Virus record (IMG/VR): IMGVR_UViG_3300008267_000270
Span: 1 to 27,851 of that record
Reading direction: 5' to 3' (one strand)
Source: a virus
Length of the DNA: 27,851 bases
In this document: positions 23,058 to 27,851 of the stretch, piece by piece
How positions within the stretch are numbered: the first letter of the stretch is position 1
Layout of the letters: every line of letters begins with the position of its first letter
Made by a program: the position numbers and the translations under genes
The notes under the pieces: generated by a model
Database searches by the model: none
The model's input: only the letters and a program-made list of their open reading frames with translations
Told to the model about the DNA's origin: nothing

Positions 23058-24848
23058 TTATGCTATTAACCCAGTGTTAATATTTTTAGCGGTCTTAACT
23101 ATAGCATCCGCATTAATAGGATTTGATGCCCATTCTGTCATTATTTTTGTAACTTCAGCGGACGTTAAATTAGGCGGTACTTTTGAAAAATCAAAAACGT
23201 GAGTTAATTGTATGTTTTGTGCGGTTTCAGTGGCAGTATTTATTCTTGTATTTGTTGATGAAATATTGGTTGCCGGACTTGTTATTGTATTTGTTGTTGC
23301 CGGTGTTGCGGTTGTTGTTCCTAATATATTTGACATATCAGGTAAATAATTTGTAACTCCTTTAATTTTATCACCAATACCATTAATAATATTTTGAAAC
23401 CCGCTTGTATCAATTCCCATAACGGCAGTATCAAGCGTTTCCATTAATTTCTTCATAACATTATCAAAATCTTTACTAACCAATTCAGGGGTAACAAATT
23501 TTCCTTTTTCAACAGTACTAATGATTGTATCAGTCGCTTCTTTATAACCTTTTTGCGCCGGCACTGATTTTGCAACACCATAAGTAATACTCGTCACCAA
23601 TCTATCAATTGATGTGTTTAATTGAACCAATTGTGATAATTGATTTCTTGCAATTCCTTCCGCGGTTTCTCCTTGTAGTAATTGTTCGTCTTTTAATGAT
23701 TTTATCTCATTAGCAGTTAATTGTCCGACTTCTTTTGTAATATATTCACCTGTCCATTCACCTGTCTTTTCATCAACTTCTCTAACTTGTATTTGTGCTT
23801 TTCCACCTTCATCAATCTGAGCCATGCTCGCAATTAATTCTCTATCCTCTTCTTTTATATCAGGGGAGAATTTAATTTGTTTTAACTTCATATCAAAATT
23901 AGCAGCATTAAGTGCCATTTTCTGAAGTTCACCTCCCGTCATTCCTATTGACTTGGCGATTTCATTCATCTGTCTTTTTGCTCCAGGTAATATCTCAAAT
24001 TGTTTTGTCTGCTCATTAAATCTTGTGAACTGTTTTGTCATATCAACAATTTGATTCTGAAGTTCAGTTGGGTCATTTTGTGCTAAATCCATTAATCTTA
24101 ATGGATCCAATAATTCACTTGTTTGAACTCCCAATCTTTGTAAACTAGCAGCAAAATCAATAGCACCTTCAGGATCAAATACTTTTTCTGTTATTTCAAA
24201 TATTTTACCCATATCAATACCTAAACGAGATGCTTGAGCCGCCATTTTCGCAAGACCTTTAACCCCTCCTTCAAAATTGAATAGGTTCATCTTATCCAAA
24301 TTTTTAACAACCCCCGCAGAAACACTTCCAACGGTAACACCAGCCTGATTTGCGATTTTAGCAACATCAACCATTCTTTCCCCAATTTGAGATATAGGTA
24401 CTCCAACATCTTGAAAAGATTTTGCCATAACCTTTCCTTCTTGACCTGTTATCTTTGCGGTTGCGGCAAGCTCAACAAGTTGGTCATCAGTCAAACTTAA
24501 ATTAACATTGAATGCATTAACTAAATCTTTATAATCGTCAGTAACATCACTAGCCTTTAAACCTAATTCAAGATATCTCGGTATTGTATCGGCAATTGTT
24601 GACGTTAATTCTTGTCCTCTTTTGGAACCAACCCCTAAAACTTGAATTAATTGTGCGGATTTAGCGTCAAGATCTAATATTGCTCTACCAATTTTTTGTG
24701 GGACTGACGCAATTTCACTTACTAAATTATTTAAGATGTTAGTAGGTTTTTCCCAAAATTCACCTAGTTTTTTTACCGCATCAAATTGTTCTGGATCATA
24801 TCCAGATGAAGAATCCGCCTTAACACCACTATCTTGAAAAAACATCAT
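23058..24848 (-). CDS. Tail tape measure protein
   Basis: The 596-aa protein is helix-rich with alternating Ala/Gly/Leu segments. About 80-220 (ELTSTIADTIPRYLELGLKA ... AATAKITGQEGKVMAKSFQDV ... VGSVSAGVVKNLDKMNLF) fits the TP901-type tape measure core, and the C-terminus has a Thr/Asn/Ala low-complexity stretch (about 500-545). At the usual 1.5 angstrom per residue it predicts a tail of roughly 90 nm, the same as T4 (gp29, 590 aa). It follows the tail tube and the gp26/chaperone pair and precedes tail-end genes, the expected tape measure place. It starts with two adjacent Met codons; the first (24848) and the second (24845) are equally possible. No peptidase or lysozyme domain is seen. Confidence 0.85.
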   Translation of the reverse strand: MMFFQDSGVKADSSSGYDPEQFDAVKKLGEFWEKPTNILNNLVSEIASVPQKIGRAILDLDAKSAQLIQVLGVGSKRGQELTSTIADTIPRYLELGLKASDVTDDYKDLVNAFNVNLSLTDDQLVELAATAKITGQEGKVMAKSFQDVGVPISQIGERMVDVAKIANQAGVTVGSVSAGVVKNLDKMNLFNFEGGVKGLAKMAAQASRLGIDMGKIFEITEKVFDPEGAIDFAASLQRLGVQTSELLDPLRLMDLAQNDPTELQNQIVDMTKQFTRFNEQTKQFEILPGAKRQMNEIAKSIGMTGGELQKMALNAANFDMKLKQIKFSPDIKEEDRELIASMAQIDEGGKAQIQVREVDEKTGEWTGEYITKEVGQLTANEIKSLKDEQLLQGETAEGIARNQLSQLVQLNTSIDRLVTSITYGVAKSVPAQKGYKEATDTIISTVEKGKFVTPELVSKDFDNVMKKLMETLDTAVMGIDTSGFQNIINGIGDKIKGVTNYLPDMSNILGTTTATPATTNTITSPATNISSTNTRINTATETAQNIQLTHVFDFSKVPPNLTSAEVTKIMTEWASNPINADAIVKTAKNINTGLIA

Positions 24849-24883: not shown

Positions 24884-25051
24884 TTATTTTTTATTATCTT
24901 CAATAATCTTATCAATAAGATATCTTCTAACATATGTTGGCATAGACAAAAATTCCGAGTATTGTGTTCTCAGAAATTTTGACATAAAATAAAATTCATC
25001 AAGTAGATTTTTAGAGTGATCAGAAGAAAGGCCGAAAAAATTCCACCCCAA
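24884..25051 (-). CDS. Short overlapping ORF, gp51/tail-chaperone-like; TTG start or +1 frameshift product
   Basis: Reading the +1 frame past the gp26-like stop gives an open stretch from 25063 to TAA at 24884-24886. It translates as LGWNFFGLSSDHSKNLLDEF, then YFMSKFLRTQYSEFLSMPTY and VRRYLIDKIIEDNKK, a compact helical protein ending like T4-type gp51/small chaperone ORFs ('YSE..SMPTYVRRY.IDKII'). Only a TTG (25051) and a late ATG (24985, T-rich leader) are available as starts. The alternative is expression as a C-terminal extension of the upstream protein by a +1 shift at TTT-TTT-CGG (25032-25040), giving a 299-aa fusion. It lies just before the tape measure, where other phages encode frameshifted tail chaperones. 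That it is coding is likely; how it is started is unresolved. Confidence 0.6.
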   Translation of the reverse strand: MGWNFFGLSSDHSKNLLDEFYFMSKFLRTQYSEFLSMPTYVRRYLIDKIIEDNKK

Positions 25052-25784
25052 AAGTGATATTGGTCATCACTCTTTCTCCTGACGGGGCTATTACTTCTTT
25101 TGTTAGGTCTAATCTAGGTTCATTTTCCGCAATGAAATTCTTTATGTGTTTTGAATCCATTATAGGCATTGTTTCAATAAATTTGGAGATAAATCCTCTA
25201 TCATCATTTCCATCAATTGACACAATCATTTTATTTAATCTAATAGTTTGAGTTGGTGGTATTCTACCTGACGGATATTGATCAATGATACTATCAATCT
25301 CAATTAAATCTCCAATTGTCAATAATTTTAATTTAACCAAATTTCCACCTCTAGGTGATGTTGTTGTTAAATATCCATTTTCATCTGGTTTGGCATCTGT
25401 TTTTCTTATATTAAGTTCGTCCAATAAAATTGATGATGAAAATTCTTTTCCTGTTGCAGGGTCTTTTAGAAGGACATTATATTCAGGACCAAACGATGTG
25501 TTTCTTAAAAAGATCATTAAAGCCTCAATATCACCATCCAACATTTCGTCAGGTCTAAGGTCTGGTTCATAAACCTTACCTCTCAATAAAGGTAAAACAA
25601 TACTTTCTCTTATTGATTTATTAGGGTTAATATTTGATATGGTATTTTCATCAGTCGCAGTTAGATACCCAACTTTAACACTTTTCTTTTTTGATTTGTA
25701 AAAAATCCCATTAGATGGTAGTTTCACCACATCATGAGGTAAGTTAAAATCCATTTGACCATATTGATTAACATCTTGTTCCAT
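25020..25784 (-). CDS. gp26: gp26 / T4_baseplate-family protein (tail assembly or hub)
   Basis: The 254-aa protein has the layout of the T4_baseplate (gp26) family: LPSNGIFYKSKKKSVKVGYL near the start (about 20-40, the 'LPS.G..Y' motif), ATDENTISN, an IEALMIFLRNTSFGPEYNV segment (about 94-112, 'GPEY' motif), and a C-terminal LTIGDLIEIDSI helix ending in ITFGVEFFRPFF. In T4, gp26 acts in hub assembly and pairs with gp51. I chose the ATG at 25784; an upstream in-frame TTG (25829) would reach into the endonuclease gene. It lies before the tape measure, as tail-chaperone genes do, and is overlapped by the short ORF in the next frame. No Shine-Dalgarno sequence; the leader is A-rich. Confidence 0.8.
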   Translation of the reverse strand: MEQDVNQYGQMDFNLPHDVVKLPSNGIFYKSKKKSVKVGYLTATDENTISNINPNKSIRESIVLPLLRGKVYEPDLRPDEMLDGDIEALMIFLRNTSFGPEYNVLLKDPATGKEFSSSILLDELNIRKTDAKPDENGYLTTTSPRGGNLVKLKLLTIGDLIEIDSIIDQYPSGRIPPTQTIRLNKMIVSIDGNDDRGFISKFIETMPIMDSKHIKNFIAENEPRLDLTKEVIAPSGERVMTNITFGVEFFRPFF

Positions 25785-25809: not shown

Positions 25810-27405
25810 TTAATTTGTTTTTTTATCAATACTTAATTCCCATCTCGTATTACCACAATCGTATATTCTATATATTTTACGTTCAAACATAATTTCTTTT
25901 TCAGTTTTATTAGAATCAAATCCTTCTTTTATTAAAGATGATTTTTTAAAATTAAACCTATAATGTCTTTTATTTCCAATAACATACCAATAGTTTGGTT
26001 TTGATTGAGATATAAATTTGAAATTTAACTTTTCATATAAATCGCCCTTAAATAACCTAATATCAGAATATGAAATTATTTTTTTAGGGTTATTTATTTT
26101 TATAAAATTTTTTAATAGTTTTGATGCCGACCCAATAACATTAGTATTTAATTTATTACAAAATCTATTTAATTCCCATTCATCTGTTTTACCTCCCATT
26201 ATAATTCTCCCTTTTGAGAATGTCATAATAGAAACCATTTCGTCTTTAAAAAATAAACCTAATCTAACTCTTGAGTTAACGGATCCTTGAATATGGTTTT
26301 TCTCCAAAAAATCCTTACACTCTTTAAAACCAACTTCTCTTATTTCACATTTTCTAGCAAAAATTTTATTTTCAGATATTTTAATTTTATTTTTTATTAT
26401 TGATTTTATAATTTCTTGATTGTATATCCATTCATCTTCAAAAATATGAATTAATTCAATATTCTCACCCTCACATTTTATTGTTTTTTCTAAATGATAA
26501 AATGGTGTTTTAAATAACTCATTATGCCAATATAAACCATTAAATTCTATACCTAAATTATAATCCGGAATAAAAACATCAACTTCAGTTTTTTTATTTT
26601 TTAATTTAAAATTTGTTAGATATTTAACACCTATAACATCTAAAAAATCACAAATCTCATTCTCATATCCACTCCTTTGTTTAAACCCTAAAGGATTACA
26701 ATTTAAACAAACATCATAGTTTCTCTTATATCTTTCATATAATAATTGTTTTGTTAATTCAGACTTATTACCACATTTAGGACAATCAATTATAACAGAT
26801 CCTTTTTTCACCTCATTAAAATATATTTCGGAATATAAATTCTTATATTCTTGAGTGATTCTATTGTGATAATTATTTGATTTAGAATAATTATCTACAC
26901 CATATTTTAATTCGCAAGTTTTTTTATATTTTTCAATATTATTGTAATTTTCATTACCATAATTAATTAACTTTGTGTATTTACTTTTCTCAATGTTATT
27001 ATAATTTTCATCACCATAATTAATTAACTTTGTGTTTTTTTGTTTTTTAACAAATTCTTTGTGTTCTGGATAAAAGTCCACACCATATTTATCATTAAAT
27101 GTCTTTTTTTGTCTTTTGATTAATTCTTCTTTTGAAGAATTGGCACAAGATAAAGAACAAAAATCACCATATGGTTTGTCAAATCTGTTTCTAAATTTAA
27201 CTTCATTACCACACTTAAAGCATTTTGGTCTTTCTTTTAACTTATGAAAATAAAAATAAAGTTTCTCCTTGAAAGTTAGATCTTGATTTAAAGTTTTTGA
27301 GTATTCAATTATACTATTATATAATTCTAACTCATTTTTCATTAACCATTTTTCGTTGGTCTTATATCCTGATTTATTATTGATTGTGAAAAATGAAAAA
27401 TCCAT
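25810..27405 (-). CDS. Free-standing homing endonuclease, Vsr-like (EDxHD) with GNAT-like C-terminus
   Basis: The 531-aa protein starts with a Cys4 knuckle (C62, C65, C83, C87), then three tandem 19-residue units of the type K-x-T-x-L-x-x-Y-G-x-x-N-Y (about 124-178, plus a diverged KYGVDFY unit at about 106-112), a second Cys4 (C208, C211, C233, C236), and a Vsr-like nuclease core: E249 (YENEI), E274/D276 (TEVDVF), D281, E287 (IEFNGLYWH), H294 and H304. Residues of about 350-531 (CEIREVGFK ... HIQG ... RLGLFF ... SYSDIR) look like the GNAT-fold domain of phage Hef-type endonucleases. The gene is visibly richer in A+T than its neighbours. It sits between tail tube and gp26-like genes, with no coding loss seen. 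Homing at a tail gene is likely. Confidence 0.82.
   Translation of the reverse strand: MDFSFFTINNKSGYKTNEKWLMKNELELYNSIIEYSKTLNQDLTFKEKLYFYFHKLKERPKCFKCGNEVKFRNRFDKPYGDFCSLSCANSSKEELIKRQKKTFNDKYGVDFYPEHKEFVKKQKNTKLINYGDENYNNIEKSKYTKLINYGNENYNNIEKYKKTCELKYGVDNYSKSNNYHNRITQEYKNLYSEIYFNEVKKGSVIIDCPKCGNKSELTKQLLYERYKRNYDVCLNCNPLGFKQRSGYENEICDFLDVIGVKYLTNFKLKNKKTEVDVFIPDYNLGIEFNGLYWHNELFKTPFYHLEKTIKCEGENIELIHIFEDEWIYNQEIIKSIIKNKIKISENKIFARKCEIREVGFKECKDFLEKNHIQGSVNSRVRLGLFFKDEMVSIMTFSKGRIIMGGKTDEWELNRFCNKLNTNVIGSASKLLKNFIKINNPKKIISYSDIRLFKGDLYEKLNFKFISQSKPNYWYVIGNKRHYRFNFKKSSLIKEGFDSNKTEKEIMFERKIYRIYDCGNTRWELSIDKKTN
26946..27038 (-). repeat. Tandem 57-bp repeat within the endonuclease gene
   Basis: The plus-strand block beginning AATTTTCATTACCATAATTA at 26946 recurs nearly unchanged at 27003 (57 bp apart, one base differing in the first 33). 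It encodes the first two 19-aa units; the third unit is diverged. The near-identity points to recent duplication. Confidence 0.8.
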
Positions 27406-27464: not shown

Positions 27465-27851
27465 CTAGTACACGAGTATACAACGATCCATACGAAGTGT
27501 TGCTGAAATATCCGCAAGAGCATCTTGACTATAAGATAATGAACCAAAGTTTACGTCAGTTAAAAAAGTTCCCTCCAATATCCATTTTTCAACAACAACT
27601 CCTGTTGGATCCAACATCTCAATATCAACATTTTTCTTATATCCCGCAGCATAACCCATACGACCTGTTACAGATTCAGCACATAAACGAACCCATTCCA
27701 TAAGAGCCTGTGATGCTGATGGTCCGATTGGGTCACGGAATTTAACCTGAATAGGATCCCAGTTAAATCTACCAGCAACAAATGTTGAGGTGTTTAAGAA
27801 TTGTATTTCAGTTGAACCGATTTTTATTGATGGTCTTGCGGCACTTTCCAC
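27465..27851 (-). CDS. gp19: Tail tube protein, gp19-like (5' end outside window)
   Basis: The visible 128 residues (the first codon in the window is GTG for Val, not a start) are the C-terminal part of a tail tube protein. FVAGRFNWDPIQVKFRDPIG (about 24-43), then WVRLCAESVTGRMGYAAGYK, NVDIEMLDPTGVVVEKWILE and GSLSYSQDALADISATLRMD fit the gp19/T4 tube family, the beta-sandwich that stacks into the inner tail tube. The T4 protein is 163 aa, so perhaps 30-40 N-terminal residues are missing. It stops with TAG (27465-27467). The gap to the endonuclease (59 nt) shows no terminator. Confidence 0.88.
   Translation of the reverse strand: MESAARPSIKIGSTEIQFLNTSTFVAGRFNWDPIQVKFRDPIGPSASQALMEWVRLCAESVTGRMGYAAGYKKNVDIEMLDPTGVVVEKWILEGTFLTDVNFGSLSYSQDALADISATLRMDRCILVY

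Follow-up and report, generated by a model that had tools for sequence, protein, structure and literature searches.

The locus studied here raises the question of whether two overlapping reading frames upstream of a putative tape measure gene encode one protein or two. They lie on the minus strand of a 27,851-nt viral DNA (the window, meaning the whole stretch analysed). The first frame encodes a protein related to gp26 of phage T4, and an open frame continues past its stop codon in the +1 phase. A sequence-only reading had proposed that a ribosomal frameshift at TTT TTT C joins the two, with a separate start codon or a sequencing error as alternatives. The features concerned are as follows.

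27465..27851, minus strand: tail tube gene, the 5' neighbour, incomplete at the window edge (phrog_4542, E 4e-24)
25810-27405, minus strand: HNH homing endonuclease gene, separating the tail tube and chaperone genes
25020..25784, minus strand: gp26-type short tail assembly chaperone, frame-0 open reading frame, 254 aa (phrog_150, E 2e-9; PF12322)
25034..25040, minus strand: slip site TTT TTT C, whose Phe-Phe makes up two of the six invariant columns in 45 gp26 proteins
25032..25034, minus strand: CGG, the frame-0 codon after the slip (one of 277 Arg codons)
24884..25033, minus strand: +1-frame extension, 49 codons starting with GGC and then TAA (matching the extension profiles of relatives)
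23058..24848, minus strand: putative tape measure, 596 aa, the next open reading frame (assigned by position)

Frame 0 runs from the ATG at 25784 to the TGA at 25022-25020, and its 3' end reads GAA TTT TTT CGG CCT TTC TTC TGA. The T6 run occupies 25040-25035, the second TTT 25037-25035, and the TTC of the +1 phase 25036-25034. The +1 frame is open until the TAA at 24886-24884, and the slip product would comprise 250 + 49 = 299 aa, with a junction reading EFF-GLSSDHSKNLLDEFYFMSKFLRTQYSEFLSMPTYVRRYLIDKIIEDNKK. We recomputed the coordinates, the 49-residue extension to the TAA at 24884 and the 299-aa product given in the sequence-only reading, and all agreed. The -1 frame, analysed in the near-identical locus L002, is shut after 16 codons; the window extension is in the +1 frame and not in the -1 frame as in cyanophages.

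The placement of the chaperone gene between tail tube and tape measure genes holds in the window, with the homing endonuclease gene inserted. The tape measure is assigned by its position; family profile searches with the 596-aa product gave a best match of only E 0.016, and the gene at the corresponding position is annotated as tape measure in the phages immuto and LIS04. Among 41 gp26 loci, the HNH endonuclease was found at this site only in the near-identical loci L002-L006. The gap between the tail tube and chaperone genes is about 100-220 nt in most gp26 relatives, and other inserts are present there in L017, L018, L024 and L025 (about 1000 nt) and in L042 (478 nt). The leaders of the 17 window ORFs are mostly A/T-rich and, over the 22 nt examined, lack a Shine-Dalgarno (SD) sequence, a pattern that may point to a host among the Bacteroidota. 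No tRNA genes were detected within the window.

Scans of viral contigs were used to collect close relatives of both parts of the gene. They yielded 41 loci for the gp26 part, all of which were retained, and 100 relatives for the extension, of which 80 were retained. In 39 of the 41 gp26 loci, the +1 extension is 35 codons or longer; one exception has no frame-0 stop inside the locus and the other ends directly past that stop. Over 36 codons, none of the 44 distinct extensions contained a stop in its own frame, and the other two frames were interrupted in 44 and 38 of them. In the same 44 sequences, pN/pS was 0.29 in the extension frame versus 0.85 and 1.60 for the two alternative frames, and that of gp26 itself was 0.39. 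These values indicate that the extension is under purifying selection. Column divergence was 0.05-0.09 across the 30-nt overlap versus about 0.2-0.45 in most flanking bins.

The sequence-only reading had looked to an alignment of homologues over the overlap as the check on frameshifting. Both frames are retained in this alignment. The junction codons of 71 distinct loci read TTT GGG GT(G/T/A) GA(A/G, C once) TTT TTT CG(G/C/T) CCT (GTT once) TTC (TTT once). TTT TTT C is kept in 71 of 71 distinct window-clade loci, although part of the invariance of G4 and T6 comes from the sampling, since the loci for the codon counts and for alignment A4 were picked by the motif GGGGTNGANTTTTTT, which contains both runs. 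This motif matches 120 of 121 loci; the one left out, L115 (GGGGCTGAATTTTTTC), has T6 too. Compared with the background of the same genes, codon use at the junction is strongly skewed: GGG in 71/71 (background 0.11), GTG in 61/71 (0.07) and CGG in 66/71 (0.00). Taken at the level of sequence comparison, the +1 recoding site of this T4 gp26/gp51-type chaperone is real and conserved, and we infer the mechanism below.

An indel in the T6 run had also been considered. T-runs are prone to error, but both frames are intact in 71 distinct sequences on many independent contigs, which rules out an error of sequencing or assembly as well as gene decay.

According to another proposal, the extension is a separate small protein, initiated at the TTG at 25051 or by reinitiation. 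A TTG is indeed found at this position in 70 of the 71 distinct loci. Its conservation is explained by the frame-0 Phe-Gly codons (TTT GGG), which impose TTG in the +1 frame. In L042, the +1 frame reads TTG GGG TAG ACT TTT TTC; a product begun at this TTG cannot reach the extension because of the in-frame TAG, and the extension is nonetheless retained. An independent ATG in homologues, named beforehand as evidence against frameshifting, was absent near the junction in the extension frame of 68 of 71 window-clade loci. In more distant groups described below, ATG, GTG and TTG are all missing from this region of the extension frame in 30 of 77 Mel-type loci and in 15 of 32 SP-15-type loci, the latter including L333-L335, which were scored as +1 and are truly -1. 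We consider a separately started protein very unlikely.

Two elements 5' of the slip site are candidate stimulators.

25045..25088, minus strand: 5' stem-loop, with covariation in its inner hairpin (alignment A4, 47 distinct sequences)
25044..25049, minus strand: SD-like GGGGUG, a possible stimulator overlapping the 3' arm of the stem, in the GGG and GTG codons counted above

The arms of the stem-loop are GCCCC (25088-25084) and GGGGU (25049-25045), its inner hairpin is formed by 25074-25065 and 25059-25050, and 4 nt lie between its 3' end and T6. The CCCC-GGGG pairing is present in 47/47 distinct sequences of the motif-picked set. In the inner 10-bp hairpin, 90.2% of cells are paired, and 21 cells are changed on both sides, compared with 5.8 ± 1.9 in shuffles, none of 500 being as high. 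Its covariation score of 0.256 likewise exceeded that of all 500 shuffles (0.188 ± 0.011) and of the slid controls, none of which went above 0.129. Less distinctive is the tally of pairs altered on both sides: 129 of 500 shuffles reach its value of 4, and two slid controls surpass it (5 and 6). Folding stability was no better than that of shuffles in four of eight sequences (z -0.4 to +0.8). No consensus structure was obtained in the other +1 groups examined, and the stem-loop belongs to the window clade only. A search of Rfam gave three sub-threshold matches, all to eukaryotic snoRNAs, which we regarded as chance. In T4 gene 60 bypassing, a 5' stem-loop works as a motor, according to a passage in PMC5009743.

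GGGGUG sits 3 nt 5' of the first TTT; a rule for the spacing between SD and shift site is given in section 36 of PMC5009743. It may simply be the arm of the stem, because most window ORFs lack an SD in the 22 nt upstream. The codon CGG had been called rare in this genome, and it proved rarer still than supposed: the one CGG among the Arg codons of the 17 window ORFs is that of the slip site. As a third candidate stimulator, a hungry codon, it is confounded by dual coding, since the Gly codon GGC of the +1 frame also forces CGG, and rarity alone is weak proof. A pseudoknot helix across the slip site, formed by UCAGGAGA (25075-25082) and UCUUCUGA (25020-25027), pairs well in the window and was rejected; a change on both sides was seen in just one of its 8 pairs, and pair 17-77 is broken in 18 of 47 sequences.

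The same +1 layout was found by tblastn and scans in distant relatives, namely Bacillus phage SP-15, Listeria phage LIS04, Streptococcus phage GXN1, Microcystis phage Mel-JY01, Flavobacterium phage immuto and Rhodothermus phage RM378. In the huge phage LR756508, the extension is likewise in the +1 frame, and the -1 frame is open for 38 codons as well. In these distant relatives, the extension begins directly past a Phe codon able to slip forward. The slip strings are TTTTTTC in SP-15, TTTTTTA in LIS04, TTCTTTC in GXN1, TTTTTTT in Mel-JY01 and RM378, TTTCTTT in immuto and AACTTTC in LR756508, and the codon at the CGG position is TGG, CAC, AGT or CTA. The extension is missing from the annotation of LIS04 and GXN1 and is annotated as a separate truncated ORF in SP-15, Mel-JY01, immuto and RM378; none of these six annotated phages carries a joined or frameshift annotation.

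Further scans for relatives surveyed the best 80 of at least 553 and the best 80 of at least 563 loci. Among the 80 Mel/immuto-type loci listed, only the +1 frame is open in 65, both frames are open in 11, neither is open in 3, and 1 is cut. The 35 SP-15-type loci, all retained, comprise 29 with a +1 extension, 3 with a -1 extension and 3 that are cut. UUU-Y is missing in 6 of 32 SP-15-type loci, in which the string is TTA TTT A, CTA TTC A or TTA TTC A. In these loci (L320, L323, L324, L325, L329 and L330), AAT CCC AGT follows and the extension is still in the +1 frame; they may slip elsewhere, for example at the Pro codon in CCC A. A Pro-codon slip was rejected as the general mechanism, because CCT is replaced by GTT in L042 and Pro is absent at this position in several relatives; it may act where UUU-Y is missing.

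The distant relatives bear on the main rival of a ribosomal shift, transcriptional slippage, in which the polymerase would omit one U in T6 with the aid of the nascent 5' stem-loop. In its favour, the stem-loop terminates 4 nt 5' of the run, and transcripts one base short arise at T5C5 beside a stem-loop in Roseiflexus IS630, as described in a passage of PMC5009743. However, ribosomal slippage is favoured because relatives carry a T-run of just three: six of 32 SP-15-type loci and GXN1 read TTC TTT C, and LR756508 reads AAC TTT C. The stem-loop is, moreover, missing from the other +1 groups, and for the polymerase to slip, a T6 run lacking such a context is short. We regard transcriptional slippage as unlikely.

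The same relatives bear on a -2 ribosomal slip like that of Mu, which would enter the same reading frame with one extra Phe. The A-site TTT could re-pair on the T-run, but the P-site codon would become AAT or AGT, which Phe-tRNA is unable to read, and the relatives with TTC TTT C and AAC TTT C disallow such a slip. A -2 shift is a very unlikely explanation.

A +1 ribosomal shift at UUU-C in a T4 gp26/gp51-type chaperone, producing a short and a long form, very probably accounts for the locus. Standard translation would give the 254-aa short form. In some ribosomes, the Phe-tRNA on the UUU before C would re-pair on UUC, moving +1 and giving the 299-aa long form, which would carry the extension as an added helical C-terminal part and be the counterpart of lambda gpGT beside gpG. 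The anticodon of bacterial Phe-tRNA is GAA, and the move from UUU to UUC improves pairing. The re-pairing of TTT (25035-25037) on TTC (25034-25036), as first suggested from the window, is supported as the simplest slip. The minimum common to the group would be a Phe-tRNA that moves from UUU to UUC or UUU, and in the window clade the 5' stem-loop, the SD-like GGGGUG or both probably stimulate the shift. The sequences themselves show that the site is conserved, that the overlap is coding in both frames, that the extension is under selection, that key homologues have no usable start codon and that each frameshift phage examined has a single such gene. From these comparisons we infer that the event is ribosomal, which codon slips, what stimulates the slip, how much of the long form is made and what the two isoforms do.

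Another branch of the family extends the protein in the opposite direction. A -1 extension at T TTT TTC was found in the cyanophages ACG-2014g and S-SRM01, Vibrio phage Va3, Stenotrophomonas phage Moby, Agrobacterium phage Atu_ph07, PA5oct and LR756511. Among the 80 cyanophage-type loci listed, 75 have only the -1 frame open, 3 neither, 1 both, and 1 is an in-frame fusion (L289); the three loci scored as neither result from a stop in the -1 frame directly 5' of the T-run. At positions 2200-2400 of L289, the -1 extension is fused in frame into a 297-aa protein with TCTTTTTGG for TCTTTTTTCGG, and the 236-kb contig has a single phrog_150 match. This locus may belong to a phage that makes the long form alone, may reflect a reversed arrangement or may result from misassembly. 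In L136 (Klebsiella phage 0507-KN2-1), an extension-like -1 frame is present at about position 2744 in the context GAG ATT TTC ATT TAA, which has no standard slip site; coupling or reinitiation may serve there.

T4 has two genes in place of a shift. Gene 26 (208 aa) and gene 51 (249 aa) lie on opposite strands, and both products match PF12322 over the full length. On phrog_150, gp26 ends at position 235, where the short form also ends, and gp51 continues to about 280-281 of 282. Across 22 records, T4 and RB43 have two phrog_150-type genes and each of the 19 others, frameshift phages included, has one, a count that may be incomplete for six contigs. A second phrog_150 match in S-SRM01 is its own -1 extension (profile positions 227-278, E 1.2e-9). 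The cyanophage extension also matches phrog_634, 'baseplate hub assembly catalyst' (E 8e-31). Gp26 and gp51 are hub assembly chaperones, and gp51 is described as essential and of unknown function in a passage of PMC3004832. The pair of short and long chaperone genes in T4-like phages was published by Vladimirov et al. 2022, as cited in a passage of PMC10885494, and a passage of PMC12846349 credits the same work with poly-T -1 signals in T4-like TAC-N genes. The link to T4 genes 26 and 51 proposed at the outset is upheld in that gp26, gp51 and the window protein share PF12322 and phrog_150, and it fails in that the long form does not result from fusing two T4-type genes. The short/long pair itself is not new, because that of T4 has been published (Vladimirov et al. 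2022, as so cited).

We then compared the direction of the shift with a 58-row tree of the short part. The 37 +1 rows fall together with the exception of one -1 row, LR756511, and the +1 label requires two changes on the tree. The -1 rows are in the T4-like half, plus Atu_ph07 and PA5oct adjoining the +1 group, and the four T4 and RB43 proteins cluster with support 92/56. LR756511 (L132, -1) and L309 (+1) are sister proteins with support 100/98, and their opposite directions point to a recent switch. On a simple reading, the family changed to +1 once and reverted to -1 once, the order of directions not being fixed by this tree, which was rooted at the midpoint and contains long branches (RM378, T4 gp26, 0507-KN2-1 and RB43 gp26).

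The assignment to this family was evaluated by profile and structure comparison. The phrog_150 family matched by the short form is labelled 'baseplate hub', and the PF12322 match, at 24.5 bits, equals the cut-off of 24.5 exactly. Profile comparison of the extensions gave match probabilities of 97.6% for the window and Mel types, 94% for the window and SP-15 types and 89% for the Mel and cyanophage types. The cyanophage extension matched the gp51 C-terminus with a probability of 70%, and the link between the window extension and gp51 passes through these relatives, because the direct comparison fails (0.3%). An AlphaFold2 model of the short form had a mean pLDDT of 87.6. With Foldseek, this model matched viral models in BFVD, including SP-15 (E 1e-17), other hub proteins and the T4-type gp26 of Aeromonas phage 25 (E 6.8e-6), and nothing in the PDB at E 0.001. 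A sequence search of solved structures gave nothing relevant (best E 0.25). The top VIA row was the HK97 tail assembly chaperone 2ob9, with 88 aligned residues, rmsd 5.5 and a Z of 5.1, which is under the level trusted by the tool; the predicted likeness to the HK97 chaperone fold is suggestive only.

Frameshifts in tail chaperone genes are among the best-conserved recoding events, and most of those described are -1. The window gene resembles lambda G/GT in its place before the tape measure gene, its two predicted isoforms and a low-complexity slip site close to where the short ORF ends. The direction differs: lambda shifts -1 and Mu -2, according to a passage in PMC5009743, whereas the predicted shift here is +1 at UUU-C in the T4 gp26/gp51 family. 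T4 and RB43, of the same family, use two genes without a shift where the window has one gene. The cyanophage and Schizotequatrovirus -1 site T TTT TTC shares the family, the Phe-Phe position and nearly the same TTTTTTC, and it is read in another phase and in the opposite direction.

Among +1 systems, prfB is alike in a single-tRNA slip on a pyrimidine codon with an SD-like sequence 3 nt upstream (here, of the first UUU). Its A site holds a stop codon, whereas that of the window holds TTT or CGG, with the stop four codons later. The 5' stem-loop of SARS coronavirus lowers -1 shifting and, in synthetic constructs, can increase shifting to +1, as stated in a passage of PMC5009743; the stem-loop lies 4 nt 5' of the site in both cases, and a natural +1 role in phage, a candidate only, would differ from that setting. 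The same source describes a very likely +1 shift for a G-T type protein of the haloarchaeal myovirus HSTV-2, an archaeal system that we liken by this description. Listeria phage PSA had been cited as a precedent for a +1 shift in a tape-measure chaperone. This precedent does not apply, as the +1 shifts of PSA given in the relevant passage of PMC5009743 are those of its capsid and tail-shaft genes.

In the CC-licensed PMC literature, we recognised no report of a +1 shift in the gp26/gp51 family, and Vladimirov et al. 2022 may list +1 cases. The +1 branch, the change of direction inside one family and the covarying stem-loop, the last in the window clade only, are apparently new. A fuller scenario is tentative and rather doubtful as a whole: a natural +1 shift in a bacterial virus, driven by a 5' stem-loop whose refolding on exit from the ribosome draws the mRNA back, within a family that has switched between -1 (T TTT TTC) and +1 (TTT TTT C) at the same Phe-Phe and in whose T4 lineage two genes have taken the place of recoding.

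The +1 branch covers phages of Firmicutes, Bacteroidota, a cyanobacterium and Rhodothermus. For the six annotated +1 phages, annotation should be corrected where the extension is missing (two phages) or given as a separate truncated ORF (four phages). The stem-loop of the window clade lets a forward push by a 5' structure be tested directly. The family as a whole, with the two-gene solution of T4 among its members, forms a natural series for comparing the direction, slip codon and stimulator of the shift.
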